A stretch of 53,614 nt of DNA from an uncultured Bacteroidales bacterium. GTDB taxonomy: Bacteria; Bacteroidota; Bacteroidia; Bacteroidales; Paludibacteraceae. Positions within the stretch are counted from its first letter, which is position 1. Each line of letters opens with the position of its first letter. A model generated the notes under the pieces. The model was not told the DNA's origin. It worked only from the letters and a program-made list of their open reading frames with translations, and did no database searches. Made by a program: the position numbers and the translations under genes. The stretch lies in the NCBI GenBank assembly GCA_903830915.1, contig CAIKVR010000377.1, forward strand, positions 1 through 53,614. Reading direction: 5' to 3'. Below, piece after piece: positions 7,830 to 35,890 of this stretch.

Positions 7830-7842
7830 ATGTTTTACAGCA
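7830..7842 (+). promoter_or_regulatory. Conserved upstream box, copy 1
   Basis: ATGTTTTACAGCA occurs here and, identical over all 13 bases, at 26998-27010. It starts 69 bases before the operator here and 68 bases before it at the second site. It could be an activator site or leftover identity from promoter duplication. Confidence 0.4.
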
Positions 7843-7870
7843 GAAAGTACAAAAAAAATGCAAAAAAACT

Positions 7871-7901
7871 TTTGTACATCTAAAACATTGTAGTATTTTT
7901 G
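7871..7901 (+). promoter_or_regulatory. PUL promoter A (SusC unit)
   Basis: A -33 box TTTG (7871-7874), a 19-base spacer and a -7 element TATTTTTG (7894-7901) match the Bacteroidota sigma consensus in sequence and spacing. The last three bases of the -7 element are the first three of the operator palindrome. Confidence 0.7.
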
Positions 7902-7926
7902 GTCGACCAAATTATTGGTATGCCAA
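7899..7926. promoter_or_regulatory. Tandem palindromic operator A
   Basis: A perfect palindrome TTGGTCGACCAA (7899-7910) is followed four bases later by a degenerate copy TTGGTATGCCAA (7915-7926), with centres 16 bp apart. The first copy overlaps the -7 element, a repressor-like position. Half-sites TTGGT/ACCAA resemble those of FadR-type GntR regulators, while a central CG also suits LacI-type regulators. No regulator gene lies in the window. Confidence 0.75.
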
Positions 7927-8099
7927 TTTATTCAATTTAAATACTACTAATAATTTGATTCTAAAATACTTATTTCGAACCTGTGTAAAATCAGAGTATA
8001 TCACCGTGATTATGAAATAAGAATAGGCTATTTAAATATACATATTTTTTCGATAATACTTAGGTCTACAAATCTCATTCAAATAAATTAAATACTTAA

Positions 8100-11000
8100 A
8101 TGAAAAACAACAGAAACGGCAAAAAATTCCTCCGGAACTTTGTGTGGCTATTCATACTAATAAACATGAATACATTGGTCGCATTTTCCCAGTTCAAATT
8201 AAGCGGAACTGTAACTGACACAAATAAAGAGCCCTTAATTGGTGTGAACATTAAAATTATTGGTACAAATACAGGAACAATTACTGATGTAGATGGAAAA
8301 TATTCCCTACAGGCAAAGGATAGCAAATCATTAATTGCATTTTCGTATATCGGCTATAAAAATGTAGTTCAGGCTGTTGGAACAGCGAAAAAACTGGATA
8401 TCGTGATGGAGCAAGACACAAAAGCTATTGATGAGGTAGTGGTAGTTGCTTACGGAACACAACAAAAATCACACTTAACAGGAGCTGTTTCCTCCATTAA
8501 AGGTGAAAAAATGGATGATATTCCGGTTTCAAGTATTGGTCAAGCATTACAAGGGAAACTTGCGGGAGTAACAATAAATCAGTTTGACCCGGAAGCAGGT
8601 GAAGCTCCGGTTATTCGTGTTCGTGGGTTGGGTTCAATCAGTGCAGATTCAGGTCCGCTGATTGTTGTAGATGGATTCCCTATCCCTGATGGTTTATCAT
8701 CCGTAAATATGGGAGATGTGGAGTCAATTGAAGTGCTAAAAGATGCAGCTTCTGCGTCATTATATGGCTCACGCGCTGCAGGTGGTGTAATTCTGATTAC
8801 AACCAAAAGTGGTAATGTTGCTAAACCAAAATACAATTTTAAAATGTATTCAGGAGTTCGTAACGTAATGAAGTTAAATAAAATGTTAACAACCGCTGAA
8901 TATGTTCAGTTGCTTTATGATGAAGCAGCAATGCGTATGCAGGATCCTGCTGTAGATGGCACTATATATAATGCTACTTCTAATCCAAACGGAACAATGA
9001 AATATAATCAGATTGCTACAGCTGATCAGGCAGCCTATTTAATTGAACATTATTTACTGGATCAACCAACCGATTGGCAGCACGAAGCATTGCGTGGAAA
9101 TGGCTCAAATCAAAATTTTGAATTAAGTGCATCAGGAGGTGATAAAACAACCAAATATTTTGTTTCAGGTAACTATCTGAAAGAAGATGGTGTGATGAGG
9201 TATAGTAATTATGATAAATACAGTGTTCGTGCCAAAATTGATATTACATTGTCAAAAGCCGTAACTATTGGTTTAAACTTATCACCGACCTACAGCCGAC
9301 AAACAAAACCGGCAGTAAATCTGGTCGATTTTATGCGATCTCCCACCTGGTTGCCTGTACGTAATAATGCAGCCATGGCTGCATTTAATGGTACTGTTGA
9401 AGGGGCTTATTGCCAACCGAATAATTTTACGTTTGCTTCAATTAGTGGTACCGGACTGAACGGTGAATCATGGTTTGTTCCAACTGCAAGTGTATCTGGT
9501 TCTACTTCTCAAAATCCCGTTTCTCAAAATGAAAGAACTAATATTTCTACAGATGATTATCGTTTACAAGCAGGTTCATATATTTTGATTAATATTTTAC
9601 CTGGATTGAACTTCAAAACAGCAAACAGCGCTTTTACACAGTATAAAGAGTATAATCAAACTGAACAAACATCAGCCACACAAGAAGGTTCGCCAAACAG
9701 ACTGACACGTCAGACTACTCTTCATACCGAATTATTATCTGAAAACACACTGAATTTTTCCCGTAAATTTGGAAGTCATGATATTACTGTCATGGCTGGT
9801 TTCACTTATCAAAAAACAGGCAACAGATATAATCAAATGGTTGCTACCAATTTTCCAAACGATCAGGTTTTCTCATTTAATCTGGCATCTTCATTAATTC
9901 TGGATAATCAGAATTCTACCCCAACTATAAATGGTGTTAGTTCTTTTTATTATACAGAAGCACTTGAATCTTTTATAGGTCGATTAACTTATGCTTATCA
10001 GGGTAAGTATTTATTCTCAGCCAGTGTTCGTACCGATGGTAGTTCTAAATTTGCCGATAATCACAAATGGGGAACTTTCCCTGCCGGTTCAATTGGTTGG
10101 CGTGCTTCCGAAGAGAGGTTTCTTAAAAAATTCGATTGGCTTTCAAATCTGAAATTCCGTGCCAGCTATGGTTTGACTGGCAACAACAAAATTCCACAAT
10201 ATTCGTACATGAACGCATACAATACTTCTAATTATGTTCTGGGATTTGGTACAGGAACATTAATTCCCGGAGTTGCAGGCACAGATGCATTTATTGGCAA
10301 CCCAAACATAACCTGGGAACAAACTGAGGAAGGTAACTACGGAGTTGATTTAGGATTGTTTAATAGTAAAGTAAATATTTCTGTTGAATACTATAATTCC
10401 AACACCATCCAATTATTGCTTCAACAGCCAATAATGAGTATAACAGGTCATAATACATTCTGGAATAACATAGGGAAAGTAAATAACCAGGGTATTGAAT
10501 TTGAAATAACTACAACCAATATCGATTATAAGGGATTTACCTGGAAAACCACTGCTAATATTGCTCATAATCAAAATACTCTGATTAACTATGGAAGCAG
10601 TGAACCCGGAACTTATGTTGATAACTTTGGTGAACGAAGCGAAGTATATCGTGCTCAGGTGGGGATGCCATCCATTCAGTATTTCGGATATGTGCAGGAA
10701 GGTGTCTGGACTTCATGGGCAGAATGTAATATAGCAAAGGCAACCTATAATAAAGCCGGTACACCTGCTGTATATGCAAAATATGCTCCATTGCCCGGAG
10801 CAGAAAAAGTCAAAGATTTGAATGGTGATGGTAATATTACACCTGAAGACCGTACATTTATCGGCTCACCGTTTCCAGATTTCACGTATGGAATTACCAA
10901 TACATTTAGTTATAGTGGTTTTGAGTTAAGCTTTCTATTTCAGGGTGTTAAAGGTGGTAAACTTATTGATGGTAATATGAACTATAATGAAACTTTACGA

Positions 11001-11390
11001 TCTACTGCGGTTTACCTTGCTAATCGTTGGGTAAGTCCAATGTTCCCTGGCGATGGAATGACTACCTATGATAAGAATACCTCTGGTGGTGATTTGATTT
11101 TAACCGATCATGCTTTGCAGGATGCTTCATACCTTGCCATGCGTGATTGTACATTTGGGTATACACTTCCTCCTAAAATTGTAAAATCCTTTGGATTAAG
11201 TAAATTAAGGCTGTATTTCTCAGGAAATAACTTGTTATATTTCATGGCATCGAGTTACAAAGGAATTAATCCTGAAGCAAGAATGAAATCCGGTCCATAT
11301 TCAAGCGCTTTCCCTTTAGTGGATGGTTATCAACGCGGCTCGTTTCCTTTAAACAGGACTTATACACTGGGTGTTGATATTAATTTCTGA
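8100..11390 (+). CDS. susC: SusC-family TonB-dependent glycan transporter
   Basis: This outer-membrane importer takes up oligosaccharides in complex with the SusD lid. The 1096 residues comprise a signal peptide (1-31, ending LVAFSQ), a carboxypeptidase-regulatory-like domain (about 33-112, GTVTDTNKEPLIGVNIKIIG), a TonB-box region (about 113-125), a plug (about 125-240, with the family hallmark SIEVLKDAASASLYGSRAAG) and a 22-strand-type barrel ending in the aromatic C-terminus TYTLGVDINF. It is the first gene of unit A, behind promoter and operator A, and lies 51 bases from SusD. Length and motifs are normal. The cargo, probably acidic lyase products, is inferred from neighbours only. Confidence 0.97.
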   Translation: MKNNRNGKKFLRNFVWLFILINMNTLVAFSQFKLSGTVTDTNKEPLIGVNIKIIGTNTGTITDVDGKYSLQAKDSKSLIAFSYIGYKNVVQAVGTAKKLDIVMEQDTKAIDEVVVVAYGTQQKSHLTGAVSSIKGEKMDDIPVSSIGQALQGKLAGVTINQFDPEAGEAPVIRVRGLGSISADSGPLIVVDGFPIPDGLSSVNMGDVESIEVLKDAASASLYGSRAAGGVILITTKSGNVAKPKYNFKMYSGVRNVMKLNKMLTTAEYVQLLYDEAAMRMQDPAVDGTIYNATSNPNGTMKYNQIATADQAAYLIEHYLLDQPTDWQHEALRGNGSNQNFELSASGGDKTTKYFVSGNYLKEDGVMRYSNYDKYSVRAKIDITLSKAVTIGLNLSPTYSRQTKPAVNLVDFMRSPTWLPVRNNAAMAAFNGTVEGAYCQPNNFTFASISGTGLNGESWFVPTASVSGSTSQNPVSQNERTNISTDDYRLQAGSYILINILPGLNFKTANSAFTQYKEYNQTEQTSATQEGSPNRLTRQTTLHTELLSENTLNFSRKFGSHDITVMAGFTYQKTGNRYNQMVATNFPNDQVFSFNLASSLILDNQNSTPTINGVSSFYYTEALESFIGRLTYAYQGKYLFSASVRTDGSSKFADNHKWGTFPAGSIGWRASEERFLKKFDWLSNLKFRASYGLTGNNKIPQYSYMNAYNTSNYVLGFGTGTLIPGVAGTDAFIGNPNITWEQTEEGNYGVDLGLFNSKVNISVEYYNSNTIQLLLQQPIMSITGHNTFWNNIGKVNNQGIEFEITTTNIDYKGFTWKTTANIAHNQNTLINYGSSEPGTYVDNFGERSEVYRAQVGMPSIQYFGYVQEGVWTSWAECNIAKATYNKAGTPAVYAKYAPLPGAEKVKDLNGDGNITPEDRTFIGSPFPDFTYGITNTFSYSGFELSFLFQGVKGGKLIDGNMNYNETLRSTAVYLANRWVSPMFPGDGMTTYDKNTSGGDLILTDHALQDASYLAMRDCTFGYTLPPKIVKSFGLSKLRLYFSGNNLLYFMASSYKGINPEARMKSGPYSSAFPLVDGYQRGSFPLNRTYTLGVDINF

Positions 11391-11441
11391 TAATAATTTA
11401 ATTTTTATTTAAAAAAGTTCGGATTTAAAAAAAGTAAGAAA

Positions 11442-13046
11442 ATGAAAAATAAAATAGCAATATTTATAGCATTAGTATCCATTTTTATGGTTTCATCCTG
11501 TAACGATATGATTACAGATAACCAGGAATCAAAACTTAATCAGGAAGGATTTTACAATTCTCCAATAAGTATACAATATGGAGTAATGGGCTGTTATTCG
11601 GGCATGCAACGGATTATTGTTGATGAATGGAAATTTACAGAAAACAGAACCGATAACAGTTGTGTGGCAAATACAGGCACAGGCACAACAAGAAGAGTTG
11701 ATTATTGTGATATCCGTTTCTTCAGAACACCTCCAAGTCAACCTATGTTGTTAGAATTCTGGCGTAACTATTTCTCAAATATCATGAATGTAAATGCCGT
11801 TCTGCCGTCTGTGGTAAAAGGTCAAACCATAATCCCTTCCGAAACATTACGTGCTCAATACGAAGGTGAATTGTTGTTTATAAGGGCTTACCATTATTTC
11901 TCACTGGTGACTCTATGGGGCGACATGTTTAAGGTTACTGGTTTACTGGATAAAGATCAGGCAAAAACGTTGAAAAGATTACCAGTTGACTCCATTTATG
12001 CCGAACTAATTATGCCTGATTTGAAAAAAGCTGCCGCACAATTACCTTCAATTTATGCTTATAATGATTTAGGCAGAGTTACAAAATGGGCCGCAAAAGG
12101 TATGTTGGCTAAAGCATATATTACCCGTCATGGTACTAATGATTTAGATTCTGCCCTAGTTCTTATCAACGATATAATAACTAATAGTCCACATGGATTA
12201 CTGACAACCGGTGCAGTAATTGCAGGAAAACAATTAACTCCTTATGGTAGCATTTTTGATATCACTAACGAAATGAATAAGGAAATAATTTTTGCTATTC
12301 GTTTCAAAGGTGGAACTTCGGGCATTGGGTCACCATTTTGGTCAAATTTTGCACCCGATGGTTCACCAACAGGACTTTTCCTTAATGTAGGAACTCCGGG
12401 TGGCGATAACAATGCAACCCCTAATGACCTTTTACCTAAATTTTATGCGGATACAACTGCCGGTATTCCTAACATAAGATTTCATCAGTCGGTAATTTGG
12501 TACGGCAAAAAAGCATCCTCGATGATTGGAGCTCCCGGAAAATGGGTAGATCCAACTATTCAACAGGTTAACCAGGGTGAAAATGACTGGATAGTGTTAC
12601 GTTTTGCCGATTTATTATTGCTGCGGGCTGAGATTTTAGCTCAGGGTACTACTCCCGACCTTGCCCGAACTGATGTTAACACAATACGGGCAAGAGCAGG
12701 TGTTACACAATACACCACAGCATTTGCATCAAATACTGATGCGCTGGATAAAGTTTATCTTGAAAGACGACTTGAATTTGCATTTGAAGATATCCGTTGG
12801 TTTGATTTACTGCGTATGAATAAATCTTATGGTGATCCTGAAAAAGCGATTAAAATATTAAAATATGAAATGACCGATCCAAATAGTCTTGATTATTATA
12901 ATATTTACTCAAAATACAAACCAATTATACCACCATCATCGGAATATTTTAAAACAAGCAAACTTTTATTACCAATTCCTCAACAGGAAATAGATACTTA
13001 CAATTCAGGCAACAGCTTAACCTTATCACAAAATGATGGCTATTAA
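11442..13046 (+). CDS. susD: SusD/RagB-family surface lipoprotein
   Basis: This surface-exposed lipoprotein caps the SusC barrel and captures glycan. The 534 residues start with a lipoprotein signal (FMVSSC, Cys near residue 20). TPR-like helices follow (for example the GELLFIRAYHYFSLVTLWGD segment near 145). The conserved C-terminal part includes WIVLRFADLLLLRAEILAQ near 390 and LERRLEFAFEDIRWFDLLR near 440. The stop overlaps the upstream Met of the next reading frame, consistent with one transcript. Confidence 0.97.
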   Translation: MKNKIAIFIALVSIFMVSSCNDMITDNQESKLNQEGFYNSPISIQYGVMGCYSGMQRIIVDEWKFTENRTDNSCVANTGTGTTRRVDYCDIRFFRTPPSQPMLLEFWRNYFSNIMNVNAVLPSVVKGQTIIPSETLRAQYEGELLFIRAYHYFSLVTLWGDMFKVTGLLDKDQAKTLKRLPVDSIYAELIMPDLKKAAAQLPSIYAYNDLGRVTKWAAKGMLAKAYITRHGTNDLDSALVLINDIITNSPHGLLTTGAVIAGKQLTPYGSIFDITNEMNKEIIFAIRFKGGTSGIGSPFWSNFAPDGSPTGLFLNVGTPGGDNNATPNDLLPKFYADTTAGIPNIRFHQSVIWYGKKASSMIGAPGKWVDPTIQQVNQGENDWIVLRFADLLLLRAEILAQGTTPDLARTDVNTIRARAGVTQYTTAFASNTDALDKVYLERRLEFAFEDIRWFDLLRMNKSYGDPEKAIKILKYEMTDPNSLDYYNIYSKYKPIIPPSSEYFKTSKLLLPIPQQEIDTYNSGNSLTLSQNDGY

Positions 13047-13065
13047 TCTTTGTAAAATTTTAAAC

Positions 13066-14214
13066 ATGAAATATCCAACTAAACTATCATTTTTATTCCA
13101 ATTATGTATTGTTCTTGGAATAAGTATTACTTCGTGTACCAAAGAAGATCCGGTGATTCTTAAGGTAAAACCAACAGCTGACTTTATTAATCAGTATAAA
13201 GATTATTATACAACTCAACGACAAATTCTGGATACCTGTTATGCCGGCTATAAAAGAGGCAATACAGGATATAAGAAAGGATATTATAATCAAAGTCAGA
13301 TTGCTCTGAATTTTCAGAAATACTATGCCGCTTATCTGGCCGATTTAAAAACCGATTCCACGTTACTTGCAAATCCTGATGTTACATTAGGTGAATTAAT
13401 AGTTATAAATAAAAAAATGGCAACTTCGGGATTTAATTTTATAACCAGAGTTAATCTTTGTGATCATTCAGAGCTCTACGATTCAATAGTTGCAGGAAAT
13501 AAAGTTTATTCATCCATAGTTCAATTTTCCGGGTATAACGGATCTGCTGCCGGTAAAGTGTTAGGGTATGATAAAGGTCAATTATTATTGGTGCTTACGA
13601 ATGCCGGATATGTCCGAGATTCAGCCACATACACTACTCCATTAATGAATAGGTCACTTACAACAATAAAGGCTGCAATATCATCTTTTTACAATGCAAT
13701 TATTCCAAGTGATTTGGAGACATATAAAGCAAAATGTTTTAGTTATATCAAAGATCAATTAGTTTTGTGTTATAATGTGAAAGTAGGATATGGGTTTAAT
13801 GAATATGTACCTTACGTTTACAACAACTATTTGACCGCATTACGTGCAGATTCTATTCTTGCCGACCCGGCCTCGTCAAAACAAGCAACTTCGGTGGAGA
13901 TAATGGCGAGGGGTATGATAACACTGGGATCAAATGTACCACCTTCAGGTCCACGTGTTAACTTTACTCCAAGTATATCATACCGAATCACTCTGAATGA
14001 TTCTATCATTGCAGCTCAAACATTGTATAATAACACTACTCCCGGTACTGCGAAAGGTCAGGTTGCCCCATCTGTAAAAACTACTTTTAAGACTGCAATT
14101 GATGCTGCCACAACAAGTAGAGATACACCAACTACTACTGATGCAAATATTAGTGTAGCTGTTGTAAATTTAGAAAAAGCAAAACTGATTTTTATTAGTG
14201 CAATTGTGAAATAA
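13066..14214 (+). CDS. Surface lipoprotein, candidate glycan-binding protein
   Basis: A 382-residue predicted lipoprotein in the position where PULs carry their surface glycan-binding protein (SusE/F-like). I start it at 13066 because MKYPTKLSFLFQLC gives a proper signal ending SITSC; an upstream in-frame ATG at 13033 overlaps the SusD stop. The body is rich in Tyr and Thr and I cannot assign it to a named family. The last 70 or so residues (LYNNTTPGTAKGQV... NISVAVVNLEKAKLIFISAI) resemble a FIVAR-type helical module. Glycan binding is inferred from position and lipidation only. Confidence 0.7.
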   Translation: MKYPTKLSFLFQLCIVLGISITSCTKEDPVILKVKPTADFINQYKDYYTTQRQILDTCYAGYKRGNTGYKKGYYNQSQIALNFQKYYAAYLADLKTDSTLLANPDVTLGELIVINKKMATSGFNFITRVNLCDHSELYDSIVAGNKVYSSIVQFSGYNGSAAGKVLGYDKGQLLLVLTNAGYVRDSATYTTPLMNRSLTTIKAAISSFYNAIIPSDLETYKAKCFSYIKDQLVLCYNVKVGYGFNEYVPYVYNNYLTALRADSILADPASSKQATSVEIMARGMITLGSNVPPSGPRVNFTPSISYRITLNDSIIAAQTLYNNTTPGTAKGQVAPSVKTTFKTAIDAATTSRDTPTTTDANISVAVVNLEKAKLIFISAIVK

Positions 14215-14295
14215 TCCATCATTGAAATTCTACTTTCAGAAATATTAAAAGATGAATTTCATTCAACTATTGTCTATAATTTAATTTAAATTGTC

Positions 14296-16701
14296 ATGAT
14301 GAACGTGATAAGTAAATTTATACACCTCGCTTTTTCAGTTGTTTTTCTGCTTTCTTTTAGCCTGAATGCTGAAAACAAAGTAATTAAGACATCAAACATT
14401 GGTGAGCTAAATCAAGGAGTGAAAACTGCCAAACCCGGAGATTGTATTGTTATGACCGATGGCGTATGGAAAGATGTTCAAATAGTATTCAAAGGTAAAG
14501 GAACAACAAAGAAACACATAACCTTACGGGCTGAAACTCCCGGAAAAGTTTCGATTGAAGGACAATCCTCACTGTCACTTTCAGGTGATTATTTGGATGT
14601 GAATGGTCTTGTTTTCAGAAACGGATTTAGTCCGAGCGAGGCGGTTATCAATTTTCAAACATCATTGAAAGATTATGCATATCATTGTACTGTAAGTGAA
14701 TGTGTTATCGACAAATTCAATCAGTTCGTTCGCGAAAAAGCCGATCACTGGATTATCTTGTGGGGGAAATACAACACAGTAAGTAATTGTTATTTTGGCG
14801 GAAAATCCAATGTAGGAACTACGCTTATAGTCTGTCCAAACGATTCTAACAGTATTCACAACAAACACTACATTTACCGCAACTATTTCGGACGACGCCC
14901 ACGCTTGGGATCGAACGGAGGCGAATCGATTCGCATCGGAACGGGAGAAGTTTGTACACTAAGTTCCGAAACAGTGGTGGAAGAAAATTATTTTGAACAT
15001 TGCAGTGGCGAAGTGGAAATTATCTCGAACAAATCCTGCAATAATCAATTCATAAACAATACTTTCTTCGAATCGGAAGGTAGCTTGGTACTTCGTCACG
15101 GAAATAACGCATTGGTAAAAGGTAACTGGTTTATTGGCAACGGAAAACCATTTACGGGTGGTGTAAGGGTGATAAACGAAGGTCACAAAATCTACAATAA
15201 TTACTTTTACAAACTTCGTGGCGACGAGTTCCGTTCACCGCTTACCATCATGAATGCAATACCCGACTCACCACCGACGGGTTATGCCGCGGTGAAAAAT
15301 GTGATTATTGCTAACAATACATGGTATGATTGTTCGCTGCCTTGGAATTTTTGTGTGGGTGTCGGCGAACGAAACCGTACAGTTACACCTCAAAATGTAC
15401 AGATTATCAATAATATAGTCGATTGTCCGAACGATACAGTATTGAGTAAAAGTTACGACAAAACTGATGGATTCAGGTTTGCAAATAACCTGATGATCAG
15501 TAAAAAAGGTCTATCAGTTGAAAAAGGGGCAATTTCAGGTGAAATCCTGAAATCGCAGTCAACTGATATTGAAACAATTTACACCAAAACTGAGGGACAG
15601 AAAATACCGTTTATCAGCATGGATATTGTTGGACAATCGAGTTTGAATCCAACTGTAGGTGCATTTCAAAATGAACCATCGAAAACGGAAATAGCAAGTG
15701 CCAGAATCTGTGGTCCATTATGGTATAAACCCGATTTAAGTCAATTAAAGAAAGAGTTTTCAAAAGGTAAAACGATTATAGTAAAAGCCCGAACCGATAA
15801 TTTAGCCGAAGCAGTGACTAAAGCAGAAGCTGGTGATATATTGATGCTGGCCGAAGGCGAACATATACTGACTAAAAAAATCCTACTTTCTAAAAGTATC
15901 TCCATTACATCTTCCTCAAAATCAGTCTCAAAACCGGTTATAAAAATGAAAACTGCCAAAGGTGACGAATCTTTGTTTGAGTTAGTATCGGATGTGTATG
16001 TCCATTTCAAAAGTGTGAGAATTGATGGCGAAGGCGATAATAAATTAGCAAAATCCCCGAAATATGCTTTTGCTACCGGTGAACATGCGTTGGGTTATTC
16101 CCTATTTATTGACAACTGCGAAATTTCCGGTTTTGGCGTGAAGGATGGTGCAATATTCAATAGTTTGATTAGTACTATGGCCGATTCCATTGTGGTGAAA
16201 AACTCGGTGATTCGTGATTCGTACAGCGGATTCAACCTTCATAAAGAAAAGGAAGATGGCAAGTATAATGCTGAATCAGTGGTTTTTAGCAATTCTGTTT
16301 TTGCCAATTTAGCGGATTGCGTGCTCGATTATTACCGTGGTGGGTACGACGAATCGACCATTGGGGGTTCGCTGTTGATAAATCACTGTGTTTTCGATTC
16401 AATAGGAATTTCAGCAAAAGAATCGATTTTGAAACTATCGCGCATTATGTTCGTGAAAATCAATAATTCTGTTTTCTCAAACTCCGCCGTGAAATCATCC
16501 ATGTTGCTTTGGGGTTTGTACGATAAAGTATCGAGAAGTTGTTTTTACAACTGCCCAAAACCGGAAATTACAAAAGGGGCAAGAATAACCACTTTGACTT
16601 TCGATAATCCACTTTTTGAACCTAAATCTTATTCATTATCTGTCTCTTCACCATTGAAAGGCAAAGCAGTCGATGGTTCAAATATTGGACTAAAAAAATA
16701 A
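14296..16701 (+). CDS. Two-domain PL6 polysaccharide lyase
   Basis: A family PL6 (alginate lyase/chondroitinase B) lyase that cleaves uronic-acid polymers by beta-elimination. The 801 residues have a signal peptide (1-25, ending SLNA) and an N-terminal right-handed beta-helix with the catalytic pair: Lys246 in IISNKS and Arg267 in LRHGN, 21 residues apart as in chondroitinase B and AlyGC. A second beta-helix starts near residue 490 (KTIIVKARTDNLAEAVTKAEAGD). The long two-helix form fits AlyGC-like exolytic members. There is no T9SS tail, so it is probably periplasmic. It sits between the SusCD genes and a beta-helix protein. Substrate (alginate, dermatan or glucuronan type) cannot be set from sequence. 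Confidence 0.9.
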   Translation: MMNVISKFIHLAFSVVFLLSFSLNAENKVIKTSNIGELNQGVKTAKPGDCIVMTDGVWKDVQIVFKGKGTTKKHITLRAETPGKVSIEGQSSLSLSGDYLDVNGLVFRNGFSPSEAVINFQTSLKDYAYHCTVSECVIDKFNQFVREKADHWIILWGKYNTVSNCYFGGKSNVGTTLIVCPNDSNSIHNKHYIYRNYFGRRPRLGSNGGESIRIGTGEVCTLSSETVVEENYFEHCSGEVEIISNKSCNNQFINNTFFESEGSLVLRHGNNALVKGNWFIGNGKPFTGGVRVINEGHKIYNNYFYKLRGDEFRSPLTIMNAIPDSPPTGYAAVKNVIIANNTWYDCSLPWNFCVGVGERNRTVTPQNVQIINNIVDCPNDTVLSKSYDKTDGFRFANNLMISKKGLSVEKGAISGEILKSQSTDIETIYTKTEGQKIPFISMDIVGQSSLNPTVGAFQNEPSKTEIASARICGPLWYKPDLSQLKKEFSKGKTIIVKARTDNLAEAVTKAEAGDILMLAEGEHILTKKILLSKSISITSSSKSVSKPVIKMKTAKGDESLFELVSDVYVHFKSVRIDGEGDNKLAKSPKYAFATGEHALGYSLFIDNCEISGFGVKDGAIFNSLISTMADSIVVKNSVIRDSYSGFNLHKEKEDGKYNAESVVFSNSVFANLADCVLDYYRGGYDESTIGGSLLINHCVFDSIGISAKESILKLSRIMFVKINNSVFSNSAVKSSMLLWGLYDKVSRSCFYNCPKPEITKGARITTLTFDNPLFEPKSYSLSVSSPLKGKAVDGSNIGLKK

Positions 16702-16710
16702 AACCTGACA

Positions 16711-18567: not shown

Positions 18568-18571
18568 ATTT

Positions 18572-19789: not shown

Positions 19790-19801
19790 CATTAGAATTA
19801 T

Positions 19802-20998: not shown

Positions 20999-21017
20999 TT
21001 AATACTAAAAAAATACT

Positions 21018-21043
21018 GATTTTCTAGCCAAGGCTAGAAAATC
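21018..21043. repeat. Perfect 12-bp palindrome
   Basis: GATTTTCTAGCC (21018-21029) and GGCTAGAAAATC (21032-21043) are perfect inverted repeats separated by AA. The element lies between the GH88 stop and the GH2 start, 14 bases from the latter. No T-run follows, so it is not a classic terminator. It may be an operator, an attenuating hairpin in front of GH2, or a partial terminator. Confidence 0.6.
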
Positions 21044-21057
21044 ATAAAACCCGAATA

Positions 21058-23733: not shown

Positions 23734-23849
23734 ATTTTTTAAACTACAGTAAACCAAATAATTAATAAAGACAAGGCAACAGAATTATATTTCGATTTTC
23801 TGAAAGTTAAGCTTATCTAATATAATCAATGCTATTTTATTTTAGATAT

Positions 23850-25289: not shown

Positions 25290-25304
25290 AACAATTATAA
25301 AATT

Positions 25305-26957: not shown

Positions 26958-26997
26958 TGGCATTATGTTGAAAGGGTTTATAATTTTGCAAAAATCT

Positions 26998-27010
26998 ATG
27001 TTTTACAGCA
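26998..27010 (+). promoter_or_regulatory. Conserved upstream box, copy 2
   Basis: ATGTTTTACAGCA is identical to 7830-7842 and sits at almost the same distance (68 against 69 bases) from the operator. A looser relative (TAGGTTTTCAC near 35795) lies at about the same distance from operator C. Confidence 0.4.
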
Positions 27011-27060
27011 TATTTCATTAAAAACCCCTGAAATTATTTTTTTATTCTTAATAGTTGTAG

Positions 27061-27068
27061 TACTTTTG
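27061..27068 (+). promoter_or_regulatory. PUL promoter B, -7 element
   Basis: TACTTTTG matches TAnnTTTG. The -33 region is only T-rich (27037-27043), without a clear TTG. The final TTG is shared with the operator, exactly as at promoters A and C. The context TTGTAGTA directly upstream of the operator also matches promoter A. Confidence 0.6.
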
Positions 27069-27093
27069 GTCGACCAATAAACTGGTCGACCAA
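27066..27093. promoter_or_regulatory. Tandem palindromic operator B
   Basis: TTGGTCGACCAA (27066-27077) is followed four bases later by CTGGTCGACCAA (27082-27093). Centres are 16 bp apart, as at sites A and C. It overlaps the -7 element and the predicted transcription start. Confidence 0.8.
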
Positions 27094-27123
27094 ATTTATA
27101 TTATTTGGTATTTAATTTGTACT

Positions 27124-28605: not shown

Positions 28606-28622
28606 CTAATTATTATAAAACC

Positions 28623-30206
28623 ATGAAGAAACTTTTTCAAAACAGCAGTTTAAACCTTGCATTGTTGGGTTTGGCTACAATGCCTGCAGTGGCACAAAAA
28701 ACTGAAACAAAGCAAACTCGACCAAATGTGTTATTCATTGCCGTGGATGACCTGAAGCCTCTTATTGCAGCTTATGGTGATAAAATGGCGATTACTCCTG
28801 GTATGGACAGGTTGGCAAACGAAGGTATGGCATTTCAGAATTGCTATGTACAGCAAGCCATTAGTGGTGCTACACGCGCAAGTTGCCTTACCGGAATGCG
28901 CCCTGATAAAACCAAAGTATGGGATTTGATAACAAATTTCCGTCAGGTAAATACAAATGCAGTTAGTTTGCCCGAATACTTTATTAAAAATGGTTACGAA
29001 ACAGCTGCAGTTGGAAAAATTTACCATGTTGGTAGTGCAGGTCCGGGACATGATGCAGCATCATGGTCTACTCCATGGATTAATGATAAAGCTGAAACTT
29101 ATGTCAATTTCGTTCCTGAAAAAGGTAAAAAAGGTCCGGCAGTTGAATGTGCCGATGTGCCCGACAATACTTACCAGGATGGCGTTTGTGCCGAAATCGG
29201 AATCAAATTGTTGAACCAACTGAAAGATAACGGAAAACCATTTTTCCTTGCTGTAGGTTTTCACAAGCCTCATTTACCATTTGTTGCACCAAAAAAATAC
29301 TGGGATTTATACAAACGTGATCAGTTCAAGATTGCACCTTTCCAACACAAGGCAGCAGGCAGTCCGGATTTGGCCTACCATGTTTCGGGTGAATTGAAAA
29401 GTTACACCGACATTCCTCAGTTCGACAGTTATTCCGAGCAAGAGCTGGATCATTTGTCGGTTGATAAACAAAAGGAACTGATTCATGGTTACTACGCAGC
29501 CACTTCCTATATGGACGCTCAGCTTGTGAAGGTGCTGAACGAATTAGACCGGCTGAAATTGAGCGATAATACCATCGTAATCCTTTGGGGTGACCACGGC
29601 TGGCATTTGGGCGATCATGGATTGTGGAACAAACACACTGATTTTGAACAAGCTACACATGCTTGTATGTTGATGCGGGTAAAAGGAATGAAACCGGGTA
29701 TAAAACCACTAACACAATGCGAATTTGTTGATATTTTCCCAACCTTGTGTGAACTTTCAGGAATTCCGACCCCAAAATATCTGGATGGAATCAGCCTGAT
29801 ACCTGCCATGAAAAATCCAACTGCAGAATTACGGGAATTTGCATTCAGTCAGTACCCACGCAAGGATGCTATGGGTTATACCATACGCACCAAACGTTTC
29901 CGTTATACTGAGTGGATTGGCGACCTGTATTCAGCTGAATTTCCTTACAGTCAGGCCAAAATCGTAGCCACCGAAATGTATGATTACGACAAAGATCCGC
30001 TGGAAACTAAAAGTCTGATTGGTGATAAAGCATACAGCAAAGAAGAAGTGATGATGAAAAAAATGTTCACTGAAGCAATGAACCGCGAACACGTTCAATA
30101 TGCAAACTATTCAAAATTAGCCGATTGGCACGAACCTATCAGTACAACTCCGGAGAAAAAAGGAAAGAAAATCAAAAAAGACAGAAAAAGCGGTGACGTA
30201 GAATAA
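28623..30206 (+). CDS. S1 sulfatase, iduronate-2-sulfatase-like (2)
   Basis: A 527-residue sulfatase, paralogous to the one at 25305. I start it at 28623 (MKKLFQNSSLNLALLGLA, signal ending PAVAQ) rather than at an upstream ATG that overlaps the PL6 gene. The maturation motif is Ser81-Gly-Ala-Thr-Arg85, with Ala in place of the usual Pro; S-x-A-x-R is an accepted anSME variant. ILWGDHGWHLGDHGLWNKH near residue 330 completes the active-site pattern. The C-terminus is a Lys-rich tail (EKKGKKIKKDRK). A periplasmic site of action is inferred. Which sulfate position it attacks cannot be read from sequence. Confidence 0.92.
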   Translation: MKKLFQNSSLNLALLGLATMPAVAQKTETKQTRPNVLFIAVDDLKPLIAAYGDKMAITPGMDRLANEGMAFQNCYVQQAISGATRASCLTGMRPDKTKVWDLITNFRQVNTNAVSLPEYFIKNGYETAAVGKIYHVGSAGPGHDAASWSTPWINDKAETYVNFVPEKGKKGPAVECADVPDNTYQDGVCAEIGIKLLNQLKDNGKPFFLAVGFHKPHLPFVAPKKYWDLYKRDQFKIAPFQHKAAGSPDLAYHVSGELKSYTDIPQFDSYSEQELDHLSVDKQKELIHGYYAATSYMDAQLVKVLNELDRLKLSDNTIVILWGDHGWHLGDHGLWNKHTDFEQATHACMLMRVKGMKPGIKPLTQCEFVDIFPTLCELSGIPTPKYLDGISLIPAMKNPTAELREFAFSQYPRKDAMGYTIRTKRFRYTEWIGDLYSAEFPYSQAKIVATEMYDYDKDPLETKSLIGDKAYSKEEVMMKKMFTEAMNREHVQYANYSKLADWHEPISTTPEKKGKKIKKDRKSGDVE

Positions 30207-30213
30207 TTTAGAA

Positions 30214-30894
30214 ATGAAAATAAAACTCTCTCTGATTTTTATATTGCTTGTGAATAGCCTATGGCTTTTCCCACAAAAAAATTGTCCTGAAAAGATTCTT
30301 TTTCAGGACAATTTCGGGGGAAATCTATCCAATTGGCTGGTAGAGTTTGAACAACCTGAAAGTTCATCCATCAAAGTGATTGACAACAAATTAGACCTTT
30401 CTTCTTCGAAAGGAGCAACGGTTTGGTTTAATCAAAAACTATCGGGCAATATCATGATTACTTACAACGGGATTATTGTGGATAAAGGTGGGAAAAACGA
30501 CCGGGTTTCGGATTTGAATGCTTTCTGGATGGCCTCTGAACCAGGTAAAGAAAACCCTTTCGGACACGATGGACATTTTGAAGCATACGATAACTTGAAC
30601 CTCTATTATGCGGGAGTTGGCGGGCATTACAACAAGTACACCCGTTTCAGGAAATATCATAGCAACGGAGAGAAGCCTGTATTGAAAGAATACAGCGATG
30701 CTCCTCATTTATTGGTTGGAAATAAAACATACTCAGTCAAAATAATCGTAAATAATGGTCTGATTCAGTATTACTTAAACAATGAACTGTATTGGGAATT
30801 GAAAGATGAAACGCCTTACAAAGAAGGCTATTTTGGTTTCAGAACTACCATAAGTCATCAGCAATTTTCTGATTTTAAAGTAAATCGACTCTAA
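30214..30894 (+). CDS. Secreted jelly-roll protein (DUF6250/DUF1961-like)
   Basis: A 226-residue secreted protein with a signal peptide (ending LWLFPQ) and a single concanavalin-like beta-sandwich. Recognisable parts are ILFQDNFGGNLSNWLVE near residue 28, FWMASEPGKENPFGHDGHFE near 110, and the ending GYFGFRTTISHQQFSDFKV typical of the DUF6250/DUF1961/DUF1080 type. Members recur in PULs for acidic glycans; catalytic or binding roles are not firmly known to me. It lies between two sulfatases, 7 bases after the first and 12 before the second, so it is surely co-expressed with them. Confidence 0.7.
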   Translation: MKIKLSLIFILLVNSLWLFPQKNCPEKILFQDNFGGNLSNWLVEFEQPESSSIKVIDNKLDLSSSKGATVWFNQKLSGNIMITYNGIIVDKGGKNDRVSDLNAFWMASEPGKENPFGHDGHFEAYDNLNLYYAGVGGHYNKYTRFRKYHSNGEKPVLKEYSDAPHLLVGNKTYSVKIIVNNGLIQYYLNNELYWELKDETPYKEGYFGFRTTISHQQFSDFKVNRL

Positions 30895-30906
30895 AAAATT
30901 AATAAA

Positions 30907-32265
30907 ATGAAACACAAAGAATTTTTGAAAGCTGCAGGTATTGTTGCAGCCGGTATGTTAGGAATTAATACTCAGGCTCAGACTAAAGAAACGAAAAAAC
31001 CCAATATCATTTTCATTTTGGCTGACGATTTGGGTTATGCTGAAATTGGCTGCAATGGCTCTGACAAATACAAAACACCGAATATTGACAAGTTGGCTAG
31101 CGAAGGAATTCGCTTTACTCATGCTTATGCCAATCCGCTGAGCGGTCCATCGCGTGCTGCGCTTCTTACAGGCCGCTATCCGTTCCGCACCGGTGCAACC
31201 AATCAGGATGCCTGCTCGGAAGTGTTTCAACCAACCGAGAAAATGATTCCAGCCTATTTAAAACAAGTCGGTTATACATCAACTTCTATCGGCAAATGGG
31301 GACAAATTTTACTTGGACCAGCAGAATTTGGTTTTGACGATTACCTTCGTTTTTTTGGTAGTGGCATTTATTGGAGTTCACCTGAAAAAACAGTTAATTA
31401 TAGATCAAACGGTGTTGATTTGATTTTGAAAGACAAAGAATATATGCCGGATTTAATGCATAAGCAATTGGTTGATTTTCTTCAAAAAAATCAAAACAAA
31501 CCATTTTTTGCCTATTATCCGCTGTCGCATGTTCATGGTGAAATAAAACCAACTCCCGACAGCAAACCGAATGGTGATAATTATGTTGATAATATCGTTT
31601 ACATGGATAAATTAGTTGGAATTTTGCGGACTGAATTGGATAAATTAAAGCTCAGCGATAATACCATTCTCATTTTCTTCAGCGATAATGGAACTGCAGG
31701 CGGTCATTCTGATGCAGCCACCATCGGCGGACGCAGATTAATTGGTCAAAAAGGTAAAATGGAAGAAGGTGGAAGTCTTGAACCATTGATTGTTTATTGG
31801 CCCGGCGTTACTCCAAAAGGAAAAGTTTCGGATGACTTAATCAGCTCGACCGATTTTCTCCCAACTTTTGCAGAGATTACAGGAGCTCAACTACCTAAGG
31901 ATATAGCTCTTGACGGACAGAGCTTCAATGCTCAACTTCATGGGCAGAAAGGCAATCCACGCACATCCTTATTTGTTCAATTGGCAAATAATTATTGGGT
32001 TCGAAATAATGGTTGGAAATTGAATCAGGCGGGTGAACTGTTTGATATGAGCAAAGCTCCATTCGAAGAAATTCTTATTTCTGTTGATACAAAAAATCCT
32101 GCTGCAATAGCTGCACGTACCAGTCTACAAACAGAACTTGACCGACTCAATCCGAAAGGCGGTTATATCGACCACGGAGACGGAACCGGCAGACATGGAA
32201 ATAAAGATAAAAAAGCAGAAAAAAGAGAAGTCAGGAAAGAGGCAAAACTTAAACAAGGTCAGTAA
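30907..32265 (+). CDS. S1 sulfatase, arylsulfatase-like (3)
   Basis: A 452-residue S1 sulfatase from a different subgroup than the two iduronate-2-sulfatase-like proteins. It has a signal region ending INTQAQ, the metal-site motif PNIIFILADDLGYAEIGCNG near residue 33, the maturation motif Ser79-Gly-Pro-Ser-Arg83, IGKWGQ near 130, and IFFSDNGTAGGH near 255. The end is strongly basic (NKDKKAEKREVRKEAKLK), possibly for electrostatic retention on anionic glycan or envelope. It also depends on anSME maturation. It is followed after 34 bases by a beta-helix protein gene. Confidence 0.93.
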   Translation: MKHKEFLKAAGIVAAGMLGINTQAQTKETKKPNIIFILADDLGYAEIGCNGSDKYKTPNIDKLASEGIRFTHAYANPLSGPSRAALLTGRYPFRTGATNQDACSEVFQPTEKMIPAYLKQVGYTSTSIGKWGQILLGPAEFGFDDYLRFFGSGIYWSSPEKTVNYRSNGVDLILKDKEYMPDLMHKQLVDFLQKNQNKPFFAYYPLSHVHGEIKPTPDSKPNGDNYVDNIVYMDKLVGILRTELDKLKLSDNTILIFFSDNGTAGGHSDAATIGGRRLIGQKGKMEEGGSLEPLIVYWPGVTPKGKVSDDLISSTDFLPTFAEITGAQLPKDIALDGQSFNAQLHGQKGNPRTSLFVQLANNYWVRNNGWKLNQAGELFDMSKAPFEEILISVDTKNPAAIAARTSLQTELDRLNPKGGYIDHGDGTGRHGNKDKKAEKREVRKEAKLKQGQ

Positions 32266-32299
32266 TTTTCCTGAATATAATTAACTATACACCAACTAA

Positions 32300-34087
32300 A
32301 TGGTCAAGAAAATAAGCATTATTTCTCTGATAGTTTCTCTTGCATTGCAAAGCGTTTTATGCCAGACAACAACATTAGTATCAATTGATTCCAATGGAAA
32401 GTTGACTTATAAACCGGATTCAAAAGGAACGGTGATTCCCGATTTCAGTGGTGTAGGGTATCAGAATTCTGAAAAACCGATTCCGGTTGTGCCGGTTGTA
32501 AAAACGGTGACAGCGGTAGTTGGCGATAATGTATCAAATGTTCAAAATGCCATCAATGCTGTGGCTGCCATGCCGTTGGTAAATGGAATTCGGGGAGCAA
32601 TTTTGTTCAAAGCCGGAACGTATGAAATGAATGCGACAATAAATGTTGCTGCAAGTGGCATTGTGTTGCGGGGCGAAGGACAATCCACCATTTTCAAAGC
32701 CACCGGAACGGTTCAGTACGATTTAATTCATATCATAGGTGCGTCAGGTAAAACTGACATAACTTCCTCGCAGAAAATGGTAACCGATGCGTTTGTTCCG
32801 GTAGGAGTAAAAAGTGTAACTGTTCAAAGTGCACAACCATTTGCAGTTGGTGATTGGGTACATTTTCGCCGCGAACCAAACGATGCCTGGATTCACATGC
32901 TTGGCATGGACACACTTTCAAAAATTGACCCACTTGCAACCAATTGGACTGCTTCTTCCTATAAAATCAGTTATGAACGCAAAATAATGAACATTCAGGG
33001 AAATGTATTGACTTTTGATGCACCTGTTATGGATATAATCGATCCGGTTTATGCCAATGCTTTTGTGCTAAAATTTACTTCAGGTCGGATTTCAAATTGT
33101 GCAGTCGAAAATCTGAAAATGACTTCAAGTTACGCTTCTTCTACCGATGAACTTCATGGCTGGAATGCCATTTTTATGGATAATGTAGAAAATTGCTGGG
33201 TAAAAAATGTAATTGCATATTCGTTTGGTTATTCGTGTGTTAACGTCAATGATGGTGGTGCTTTCGTAACTGTTGACAGCTGTTCAATGCTCGATGCAAT
33301 TTCTCAAATTACCGGTGGTCGGCGATATTCGTTTAATTTGAACGGACAACGTTGTCTGGTTCAGAATTGCATTACCCGCAATGGACGACATGATTTTGTA
33401 GATGGAAGTCGCACCCCAGGTCCAAATGTATTCTATAACAGCACCGCCACTCTCGAACATGCCGACATTGGTCCGCATCACCGCTGGTCAACAGGAATTT
33501 TGATTGACAATGTCACCAGCGATGGGCAAATTCGGGTACAAGATAGAGCAGACTCAGGCTCGGGGCACGGTTGGTCAGGTGCTCAGATTATGTTTTGGAA
33601 TTGCACCTGCCCCGATTTTGTGGTGCAGGATCCGCCATCATATCATTGCAATTGGGCAATTGGGTGTGTTGGACAGATTACCAATGTAGGTCAGTGGACA
33701 ACAAATCCGTTAGGTATTGTTCAGTCGAAAGGCACAAAAATAACTACCATCCCAAGTTTATTTAAAGCACAATTGGCCTATCGGTTAAAAAACATGGCGA
33801 CTGTTACTGAAATTCCAACTAATACAAAAACTGATTTTCAGGTTATTCCAAATCCTGCATCAAATCAGTTTCAGGTGAAACTATCGATGACAGAATTGTC
33901 TGAAATTCAGCTTAACCTATGTGATTTGAGTGGTAAATCAATTAAAAAATTGCTTTCAACAAGAGTGAACGAAGCGGGAACAACTAATTTCTCTTTTAAT
34001 ACAATCGGCTTAAAATCAGGTATTTATTATTTAAAACTCACATCCGGTAACTTTCAGAAATCATCTAAACTGATTATTCAAAACTAA
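32300..34087 (+). CDS. T9SS-secreted beta-helix protein, paralogue 2
   Basis: A 595-residue secreted protein with a signal peptide (ending QSVLCQ), a beta-helix (about 70-500) and a T9SS tail (about 505-595, opening FQVIPNPASNQFQVKL). It is the most diverged of the three paralogues but keeps the diagnostic set: IPDFSGVGYQ, NGIRGAILFKAGTY, GRHDF, HHRW..GIL.D, GSGHGW (His423), WNC, QDPP and NWAIGC. I cannot name its CAZy family. It is three bases upstream of a T9SS-secreted PL6, so the two are probably secreted together and act on the same polymer. Confidence 0.75.
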   Translation: MVKKISIISLIVSLALQSVLCQTTTLVSIDSNGKLTYKPDSKGTVIPDFSGVGYQNSEKPIPVVPVVKTVTAVVGDNVSNVQNAINAVAAMPLVNGIRGAILFKAGTYEMNATINVAASGIVLRGEGQSTIFKATGTVQYDLIHIIGASGKTDITSSQKMVTDAFVPVGVKSVTVQSAQPFAVGDWVHFRREPNDAWIHMLGMDTLSKIDPLATNWTASSYKISYERKIMNIQGNVLTFDAPVMDIIDPVYANAFVLKFTSGRISNCAVENLKMTSSYASSTDELHGWNAIFMDNVENCWVKNVIAYSFGYSCVNVNDGGAFVTVDSCSMLDAISQITGGRRYSFNLNGQRCLVQNCITRNGRHDFVDGSRTPGPNVFYNSTATLEHADIGPHHRWSTGILIDNVTSDGQIRVQDRADSGSGHGWSGAQIMFWNCTCPDFVVQDPPSYHCNWAIGCVGQITNVGQWTTNPLGIVQSKGTKITTIPSLFKAQLAYRLKNMATVTEIPTNTKTDFQVIPNPASNQFQVKLSMTELSEIQLNLCDLSGKSIKKLLSTRVNEAGTTNFSFNTIGLKSGIYYLKLTSGNFQKSSKLIIQN

Positions 34088-34090
34088 AGA

Positions 34091-35797
34091 ATGAAAAAAT
34101 TTCAATTACAAATGATTAAAAACCAATGTTTGTCATTATTAATTTTGACAATCATTTTTATTGTTACCGGCAATTTAAAGGCTGCAATCATTAATGTAAG
34201 TTCAATTTCAGCACTACAAACGGCCATTAACAATTCAACAACGGGTGATATTATAAATCTTGGAAACGGACATTACGCCAATAATAATATAAGTATTTCA
34301 AAAAACAATATAACGGTGCAGGCAGCTACACAAGGAGGCGTATTTCTGGATGGTACTAATTCAATTTTGATTACTGGCAGCAATAACATATTTAGTGGAT
34401 TTCAATTTACTGAGAATTTCACCATGACGGGCGTGGCAATTACTGTCAGAGGGAATAACAATACTATTACTCAGCTCAATTTCAATGGTTATTCGGCAGG
34501 AAAATTTATTCAACTTGAAGGTACAAATGCTGTAGTTTCATATTCAAATTTTCAAAATAAGCTGTGTGTACTGACGACATCGAAGTCGGGCACAGGTGAT
34601 ATGGTTCAGATTATTCCAAATGAAACAACTCCGGGAAATAATATTATCCGGTATTGTTCATTCCAGCACATGCCGGGTTTAGGTGGCGATTTTGGGAATG
34701 AATGTATCCGAATTGGCGACGGTGTTTATTCAACCTATATTTCGAGAACTGTAGTGGAATACTGTTATTTTGAAGATACAGGTCTGGGCGACAGCGAAGC
34801 AATTTCAGTCAAATCGCGTGAGAATGTTCTAAGATATAACACCATGAAAAATAACCCTGATGCCATGTTTTGTTTCCGTCGGGGTGATAACAATGTAGCT
34901 TATGGTAATTTCTTTATAAATTCCGGTGGACTAAGAGCAAAGGAATCTAATAATATCTTTTGTTACAACAATTATTTTGAAAAATCGGGCGTTACCGGCT
35001 CAGCAAATGCTGTGTCTTATGTTTATTATACAGCTAATTCAACGTACGTTTTGGACAATATCAATTTTCTTCATAACACTTTTGTGGATTGTGGGGATAT
35101 TGATTTTGGTGGTACAGGTGCTACAAACGGCACATGGGTCAATAATATTTTCAAAAAATCAGGGACAATTTTCGTAAATCCAAACTCCGGAACAAGCTTT
35201 AAAAACAACATATATACAGGCAATCTAGGTATTAATATTCCTTCCGGAATGACCTTAGCCGATCCAAAACTTGCATTAAACTCCGATGGTTATTATGGTT
35301 TGACTTCAGCGAGTCCGGCAATAGGAAAAGCTTCAAATGGGTATCCTGCAATGTTGAATCTTCAGGGAATTGACACTTTGTTTTTAGATATCAAAGGACT
35401 TACCCGACCCGTTTCAAGACTGTTGAAAGATATTGGATGTGAGCAATTTAATGCAAATGGAACAATCACAAACAGACCACTAAAACTTTCGGATGTTGGT
35501 CCGATTTATCTTAAGTCTTTAGCCGGAATTGAAACTCAGAAAGAAAACTTGAATTTCAATGTTCAGGTGAATTTAGCGACAATGAAATTGGTTTTTCATC
35601 ATTTTTCACCACATACTTCAAAAATAAATCTGTCAATTTATAGTTTGAGTGGGACATTAATCAAAACCATTGATATTATGAGTACTGAAAACCAACAACA
35701 AACCGTTGATATCTCAAATCTAAAAAGTGGTATGTATTTGGTTCGTTTAACTGCACTTGATTTATCCAATACAGCAAAATTTATCCTTGGAAATTAG
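34091..35797 (+). CDS. T9SS-secreted PL6 lyase
   Basis: A 568-residue extracellular PL6 lyase. It has a signal peptide (ending GNLKA), a beta-helix (about 35-440) with Lys241 in ISVKSR and Arg263 in CFRRGDN (22 apart, one residue more than in the periplasmic paralogues), and a T9SS sorting domain (about 490-568, ending SGMYLVRLTA... KFILGN). Its catalytic domain is very close to that of the giant protein at 35917; long shared stretches include GGDFGNECIRIGDG and YISRTVVEYCYFEDTGLGDS. It is the last gene of unit B. Confidence 0.9.
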   Translation: MKKFQLQMIKNQCLSLLILTIIFIVTGNLKAAIINVSSISALQTAINNSTTGDIINLGNGHYANNNISISKNNITVQAATQGGVFLDGTNSILITGSNNIFSGFQFTENFTMTGVAITVRGNNNTITQLNFNGYSAGKFIQLEGTNAVVSYSNFQNKLCVLTTSKSGTGDMVQIIPNETTPGNNIIRYCSFQHMPGLGGDFGNECIRIGDGVYSTYISRTVVEYCYFEDTGLGDSEAISVKSRENVLRYNTMKNNPDAMFCFRRGDNNVAYGNFFINSGGLRAKESNNIFCYNNYFEKSGVTGSANAVSYVYYTANSTYVLDNINFLHNTFVDCGDIDFGGTGATNGTWVNNIFKKSGTIFVNPNSGTSFKNNIYTGNLGINIPSGMTLADPKLALNSDGYYGLTSASPAIGKASNGYPAMLNLQGIDTLFLDIKGLTRPVSRLLKDIGCEQFNANGTITNRPLKLSDVGPIYLKSLAGIETQKENLNFNVQVNLATMKLVFHHFSPHTSKINLSIYSLSGTLIKTIDIMSTENQQQTVDISNLKSGMYLVRLTALDLSNTAKFILGN

Positions 35798-35857
35798 GTT
35801 TTCACTGACAAAATCTCCAATTATATTGATAAATACTTTTATTTCAAGAAATATTGC

Positions 35858-35865
35858 TATCTTTG
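35858..35865 (+). promoter_or_regulatory. PUL promoter C, -7 element
   Basis: TATCTTTG matches TAnnTTTG and shares its last three bases with the operator. The -33 position is only T-rich (35837-35840). Confidence 0.6.
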
Positions 35866-35890
35866 GTCGACCAATAATGTGGTCGACCAA
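35863..35890. promoter_or_regulatory. Tandem palindromic operator C
   Basis: TTGGTCGACCAA (35863-35874) is followed four bases later by GTGGTCGACCAA (35879-35890), with centres 16 bp apart. Geometry relative to the -7 element is identical at sites A, B and C. Confidence 0.8.

Follow-up and report, generated by a model that had tools for sequence, protein, structure and literature searches.

What switches on a long run of genes for polysaccharide degradation is the question raised by contig C377 of an uncultured Bacteroidales bacterium (family Paludibacteraceae; assembly GCA_903830915.1). The window considered here is that whole stretch of 53,614 nucleotides; three sites in it, A, B and C, each at the head of a unit of a polysaccharide utilization locus (PUL), carry tandem copies of a short palindrome joined to a promoter element (Table 1). 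The copies are very probably operators of an AusR-type repressor, a GntR-family protein of the FadR subfamily that combines a helix-turn-helix (HTH) domain with an FCD domain and is encoded on another contig, C213, of the same genome (G000; 4.74 Mb in 436 contigs, 87% complete). The basis in the sequence is the motif, its geometry, the regulon, the cross-genome tie to the regulator gene and the spacing to an upstream activator-like box.

At A, B and C alike the operator copies O1 and O2 have centres 16 bp apart, and the last three bases of TAnnTTTG are the first three of TTGGTCGACCAA; the coordinates, spacing and overlap given in an earlier note on this DNA are correct on recount. The two 12-bp palindromes per site described there are perfect at O1; O2 of B and C is perfect only over a 10-bp core, and O2 of A is imperfect. 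The second copy at A, described in the earlier note as degenerate and as a possible means of grading repression among the units, has the same 12-mer on the other strand at C212:40801-40812, so it is a recurring variant and simple decay is doubtful. Allowing one mismatch, the tandem pattern matches three times in the window and never in 100 shuffles, whereas the single 12-mer at up to three mismatches is near chance (33 against 23.67); the signal is therefore carried by the exact copies and their pairing. Shuffles and reversed controls rule out a chance origin of the motif and the pairs.

A search of the whole genome, as the earlier note had advised, puts the motif beside genes for lyases, for uronate catabolism and for a GntR regulator; one exact site, on C62, is an exception. 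Exact TTGGTCGACCAA occurs five times, and the window accounts for three (reversed control, 0), and TTGGTNNACCAA 16 times (control, 6). Of these 16, twelve belong together: three lie in the window, four on C212, two on C314, and one each on C213 (upstream of a GntR gene), C185 (upstream of a lyase gene with a HepII_C domain) and C407 (upstream of a PfkB kinase, a 2-keto-3-deoxy-6-phosphogluconate (KDPG) aldolase, i.e. kdgK-kdgA, and an MFS gene). The minus strand of C212 holds esterase-type genes, a PF05426 lyase, PL6, a heparinase II/III-type lyase, a KdgF-like cupin, MFS and SDR, and by gene content is a second alginate operon. Operator targets include PfkB kinase, KDPG aldolase, PL6, KdgF-like cupin, MFS and SDR genes. 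The form fused to the -7 element, TANNTTTGGTYRACCAA, has nine sites in the genome and none in the control. Ten promoters of the genome enter the comparisons below: A to C in the window, D to F on C212, G on C314, H on C185, I on C407 and J on C213. The operator is fused to the -7 element in all but H, and its copy number runs from single (E, H, I and J) through double to as many as four on C314.

Looser searches give a 12-mer count at up to one mismatch that is weak by itself (23 genome-wide; control, 18); with the centre spacing fixed at 16 bp, allowing one mismatch yields six pairs (the three of the window, two on C212 and one on C314) and allowing three yields 25 (control, 14). The remaining four TTGGTNNACCAA sites are on C62, C31, C358 and C425 (C425:9695), those on C31 and C358 within genes. 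Ten places outside the regulon were inspected, and eight that lie inside genes were dropped (C134, C306, C336, C345, C358, C410, C430 and C31); the two not inside genes are on C62 and C106. At G000:C212:36316-36373 a tandem pair lies inside a long inverted repeat, with TTGTAGTATTTTTGG on either side and a -7-like element facing each way.

The best candidate for the regulator of these operators is a 238-amino-acid protein encoded on the minus strand at C213:8174-8890, because fused sites follow its close homologues. The protein matches PF00392 (GntR HTH) and PF07729 (FCD), both above cut-off, and is one of two GntR matches above the Pfam cut-off in the genome; a fused operator stands 158 bp before its ATG. 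Among 150 genomes of the family, homologues at 1e-20 or better occur in 22, and 13 of these have 61-100% identity. The fused motif is present in all 13 of the latter but in only three of the other 137, namely G039 (49% homologue, three sites), G024 and G043 (no homologue, one site each). The two members of the window genome's genus that have no homologue lack the fused motif. G094 and G148 belong to this genus. Over the 150 genomes TANNTTTGGTYRACCAA gives 51 matches in 16 genomes (reversed control, 8 in 7); in G055, G075, G079 and G105 operators follow the regulator gene within 250 bp. An alignment of 22 regulator proteins has D152, H156 and H199 invariant and H221 nearly so, in keeping with the metal site at which FCD domains often hold carboxylate ligands. 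Equivalog identity as UxuR, ExuR, NanR or FadR was dropped on NCBIfam scores, all far below cut-off (55.6/442, 56.1/396, 113.4/260 and 27/189, respectively).

The tie extends across the Bacteroidota. The 22-protein alignment was run against named genomes, and the best 80 of at least 559 homologue places, chosen by protein alone, make up 1.22 Mb; they include records of Paludibacter (63-82% identity), Marinifilum, Saprospiraceae, Pedobacter, many flavobacterial genera and two Zobellia species (38-39%). These 80 loci contain 126 TTGGTNNACCAA sites, against one in the reversed control and 1.8 in shuffles; nine other palindromes of equal composition occur 0-7 times each. At least one site is found in 59 of the loci, and in 39 the 200 bp upstream of the GntR match contain one (control, 0). 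With proteins of the window and its relatives as tblastn queries, PL6 is detected in 31 loci, KdgF-like in 25, KdgK-like in 21 and SusC-like in 65. The Z. uliginosa locus runs SDR, SusC, SusD-like, PKD, PL7, GntR, MFS, SDR, PfkB; TTGGTAAACCAA and TTGGTTAACCAA, 13 bp apart, stand upstream of its SusC gene, and its GntR match is a 38-39% homologue with GntR and FCD domains. PL17, named for the AusR locus, was not seen in the Z. uliginosa stretch examined. Such enrichment in loci picked by their GntR protein, a Zobellia alginate locus among them, therefore points to an AusR-type system; the single AusR-like GntR repressor suggested in the earlier note is thus supported by regulon, regulator co-occurrence and the 80-locus scan.

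The operators also keep a constant relation to promoters. The -33/-7 arrangement is the Bacteroidota promoter form, and 36 of 65 promoters (the ten above, H included, and 55 others) have a TTG 18-21 nt ahead of the -7 position, against 3.95 expected, which puts the operator on real promoters, over the -7 element; in the window, this TTG is present at A, and none is found at B or C. Operator spacing was counted for the 53 fused sites of the 80 loci that have 140 bp of upstream sequence. The distance to the next operator is 13 bp in 17, 15 bp in 13, 16 bp in 10, 26 bp in three and 41 bp in one, and nine have no further operator within 60 bp; all 17 sites with the 13-bp spacing are in records of flavobacterial genera. 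Fused operators in divergent pairs on opposite strands occur at L137 (1355-1381), L140 (1383-1409), L147 (3245-3271) and G079:C155:56991-57028, each of which looks like one operator pair common to divergent promoters.

Upstream of most of the ten promoters of the window genome stands a second element that, by its sequence, is the box of the Bacteroides Crp-family protein BT4338 (Cur), a predicted activator site. Passages of Ravcheev (2013; PMC3878776) give that box as wwwTATGTTnTAnAACATAwww and place it, with local sugar regulators, at monosaccharide operons; at fusA2 the box was demonstrated by deletion, according to passages of Townsend (2020; PMC6989115). Boxes resembling TATGTTnTAnAACATA, with 0-3 mismatches, stand at A, B, D, E, F, G and J, which makes seven of the ten, and were not found at C, H or I; the earlier note did not mention those at A and B. 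The box centre is 61 bp from O1 in the boxed promoters, 62 bp at A, and shuffled sets, 2000 in number, never had more than one promoter with a box at 60-62 bp. The genome as a whole holds 16 such boxes with no more than one mismatch (control, 1).

A search that left the gap between box and operator free, from 36 to 66, recovers 21 distinct promoters in nine of the 150 family genomes (control, 0). The gap is 54 in 15 of them, 55 in two, 53 in one and 38-39 in three, the short-gap promoters being two of kduI and one of a KdgF-like gene; six of the 21 lack a second operator copy at 12-19 bp. Among 393 genomes of the order, only the window genome and G151, of another family, match the pattern (three promoters in G151, gap 54 in all), and among the 55 promoters of other loci a single one, in a Paludibacter record, has the box at 60-62 bp; the layout is therefore not general. 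Three HTH_Crp_2 genes of the genome, candidates for a Cur orthologue, exceed the cut-off, and the one on C23 (L201) has two 3-mismatch boxes near its 5' end. A perfect Cur box also lies close to a one-mismatch operator fused to TAATTTTG at G000:C106:2835-2871; the 400 bp downstream contain no start of an open reading frame of at least 80 aa, and the pair perhaps serves a small RNA or a lost gene.

A third operator, O3, completes some of these promoters. An operator-like 12-mer lies within 40 bp upstream of the box in seven of the 21 family promoters, counted from TGTT at -17 in six and -18 in one, and at no other position. In the window genome it is found at C212:40901 and C314:12267, 3 bp upstream of the Cur box (G000:C212:40882-40912 and G000:C314:12248-12278), and in G151 one of the three promoters (L227) has it at -17; it was not found at A, B or C. 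The promoters thus come in graded versions: O1 and O2 (C), Cur with O1 and O2 (A and B), and O3 with Cur, O1 and O2 (C212 at 40.8 kb, and C314). O3 is 17 bp from the box centre and 84 bp from O1, i.e. 8.0 turns of 10.5 bp; in the E. coli lac region O3 is about 20 bp from the activator box and 93 bp from O1. The two regions are alike in that O3, activator box, promoter and O1 follow in like order and at like distances; they differ in that repressor family and promoter class are unrelated and that O3 here is present in seven of the 21 family promoters. By this analogy, Paludibacter and at least one other Bacteroidales family may have independently reached a lac-like region with a GntR repressor at polysaccharide-degradation genes, a reading we advance tentatively and with confidence just short of even; we infer that the repressor could act through O3 by looping DNA or evicting the activator.

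The mechanism that these observations suggest, in which binding, repression, effector and the acting Crp-family protein are all predicted from sequence, is as follows. When substrate is absent, a repressor dimer on O1 would cover the -7 element, and probably the transcription start as well, and a second dimer on O2 would strengthen the block. Degradation products of alginate, or of a related uronan, would bind the FCD domain and release the repressor, so that the three window units, the C212 alginate operon, the C185 lyase gene and C407 kdgK-kdgA would be switched on jointly. The repressor gene itself bears the operator too. At A and B a Cur/Crp-type activator would bind its box at the fixed distance, and full expression would therefore need substrate and carbon limitation together; C would respond through its operators alone. 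Substrate control and catabolite control thus seem to be combined, much as in the lac operon.

Gene content of the window bears on the substrate. The 24 forward open reading frames taken as genes between 8100 and 53396 have gaps of more than 100 bp only at B (166 bp) and C (119 bp), which fits the three units proposed in the earlier note. Pfam detects no regulator domain among the window genes scanned from 7392 on, and the genes at 13033-14214 and 50233-50883 have no Pfam match at all. Both PL6 proteins tested have solved alginate lyases as their best matches (7.3e-124 against 1.2e-25 for chondroitinase B in the first, 5.4e-109 against 6.3e-11 in the second), and a chondroitinase B role was dropped on this far weaker match; the PL7 protein matches alginate lyase A1-II' and the PF05426 protein matches chains named alginate lyase. 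Over 8100-53396, units with the same operator hold sulfatases, GH29, GH88 and GH2 as well as alginate-type lyases. The substrate of the window may be a sulfated or fucosylated uronan, decorated or second, besides alginate.

Table 1. Operators, promoter elements, activator-like boxes and gene units of the window (SusC/SusD, PL, GH and CBM as family names; O1 and O2, first and second operator copy)
Feature	Coordinates	Strand	Sequence or content
Operator O1 of A	7899..7910	.	TTGGTCGACCAA
Operator O2 of A	7915..7926	.	TTGGTATGCCAA, variant copy
Operator O1 of B	27066..27077	.	TTGGTCGACCAA
Operator O2 of B	27082..27093	.	CTGGTCGACCAA
Operator O1 of C	35863..35874	.	TTGGTCGACCAA
Operator O2 of C	35879..35890	.	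GTGGTCGACCAA; upstream Cur/Crp-like box absent
TAnnTTTG -7 element of A	7894..7901	+	3 bases common with O1
TAnnTTTG -7 element of B	27061..27068	+	3 bases common with O1
TAnnTTTG -7 element of C	35858..35865	+	3 bases common with O1
TTTG -33-like element of A	7871..7874	+	19 nt 5' of -7 element
Cur/Crp-like box of unit A	7829..7844	+	TATGTTTTACAGCAGA, 2 mismatches to TATGTTNTANAACATA; centre 62 bp before O1
Cur/Crp-like box of unit B	26997..27012	+	TATGTTTTACAGCATA, 1 mismatch; centre 61 bp before O1
Unit A	8100..26957	+	SusC/SusD, PL6, PF05426 lyase, GH88, GH2, GH29, sulfatase, others
Unit B	27124..35797	+	Two PL6-type genes, two sulfatases, DUF6250, one gene with only a secretion tail
Unit C	35917..53396	+	CBM96 protein, PL7, further large secreted proteins, GH2

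Other owners or roles of the operators can be weighed against these data. A LacI-family repressor, allowed for in the earlier note, would suit the even palindrome and the central CG of the window sites; four LacI genes exceed the cut-off in the genome, and KdgR, UxaR, UxmR and UxuR of B. thetaiotaomicron were assigned to LacI in passages of Ravcheev (2013; PMC3878776). The central pair is not kept, however, with CG in just eight of the 126 sites of the 80 loci; C377, C212, C213, C314, C185 and C407 contain none of the four LacI genes, and the sites track the GntR gene across genomes, which makes a LacI-type factor very unlikely. Another possibility is a role of the tandem copies in RNA: being self-complementary, the two can also pair with one another, and the hairpin so formed might terminate or attenuate transcription; a scan for such stems lists B (27065-27094) as a terminator-like stem of 12 pairs followed by a T-rich run, yet the single-copy sites (E, H, I, J and six of the 21 family promoters) are unable to form such a structure, and fusion of O1 to the -7 element with -33 at a fixed distance argues for DNA at a promoter. 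That stem was one of 12 found where 7.7 were expected, and a role in RNA is the least probable of the alternatives.

A broader role for the same repressor deserves more weight, while still being unlikely: it would be a general uronate regulator with a signal such as 2-keto-3-deoxygluconate (KDG), and the window would degrade a sulfated or fucosylated uronan. The sulfatases, GH29, GH88 and GH2 of the window fit this, as do the kdgK-kdgA operon, which is common to many uronates, and the targeting in relatives of kduI, a gene of pectin and glycosaminoglycan routes. Against it stand the far better match of the PL6 proteins to alginate lyases than to chondroitinase B, the PL7 and KdgF-like genes among the targets, and the frequency of PL6 in the relatives' loci. 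The AusR-type assignment itself has to bear several contrary points. The C213 regulator gene is outside the lyase loci, next to an alanine dehydrogenase and a GH2 gene; eight of the nine family genomes with 45-53% homologues lack the fused motif, and 21 of the 80 loci, including four of the six titled Paludibacter, have no site. Exact TTGGTCGACCAA at G000:C62:1594-1605, between an ETF-QO-like gene (so labelled from its sequence) and a DEAD helicase gene, has no fused -7 element and no uronate or lyase genes near it, and is either chance or an odd target; the one-mismatch operator on C106 has no fitting gene. Moreover, the compared promoters of relatives share descent, and their counts are not independent.

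Sensors in the membrane receive the signal for the best-studied PULs. In the present case, alginate and uronate loci of several orders in the phylum appear to be coordinated by a cytoplasmic repressor that uses a single short operator, so that a plain scan of DNA can find target genes of unknown function. The constant distance between operator and activator box offers a directly testable model for how substrate and catabolite control meet on Bacteroidota promoters.

Regulators of this kind are already known. AusR of Zobellia galactanivorans (Dudek et al., 2020, NAR 48:7786, as cited in PMC7874173, PMC8286568 and PMC8073546) is described there as a GntR-family repressor of alginate genes that binds promoters through single, double or triple operators and is released by degradation intermediates (PMC7874173); a passage of PMC11381880 notes a GntR/FadR-type gene in gut Bacteroides alginate loci. 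The tandem operator that the earlier note singled out as notable for a PUL is thus real, and tandem AusR operators are already in print. The half-sites, previously likened to those of FadR-type GntR proteins, fit the subfamily but not the spacing: passages of Suvorova (2015; PMC4494728) assign UxuR and GntR to a class with 2 nt between GT and AC and FadR to one with 3 nt, and do not list Bacteroidetes FadR-subfamily regulators. The FadR-type spacing is ruled out, as the sites have 2 nt, and the TKGT/ACMA boxes and the GntR and FCD domains resemble UxuR-like members of the 2-nt class.

As far as the listed titles, abstract openings and cited passages show, neither the O3 layout nor the constant spacing of the Cur box has been described before; among the papers listed, none is, by its title and abstract opening, on a GntR operator with these strings or on a Paludibacter alginate regulon of GntR type. 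The system differs from the Cur/BT4338 regulon in that the box stands at lyase/SusC promoters, under a GntR operator and at a fixed distance. It resembles AusR in its GntR and FCD regulator, alginate targets and operators in varied copy number; the likeness covers these traits, and the homology (38-39% identity) was measured on two Zobellia records other than Z. galactanivorans AusR itself. The Z. uliginosa locus is in line with the description of the AusR locus of the genus in passages of PMC8073546. The present system departs from AusR in having the regulator gene outside the lyase loci, operator copies spaced at 16 bp rather than the 13 bp of Z. uliginosa, and an added Cur-type box.

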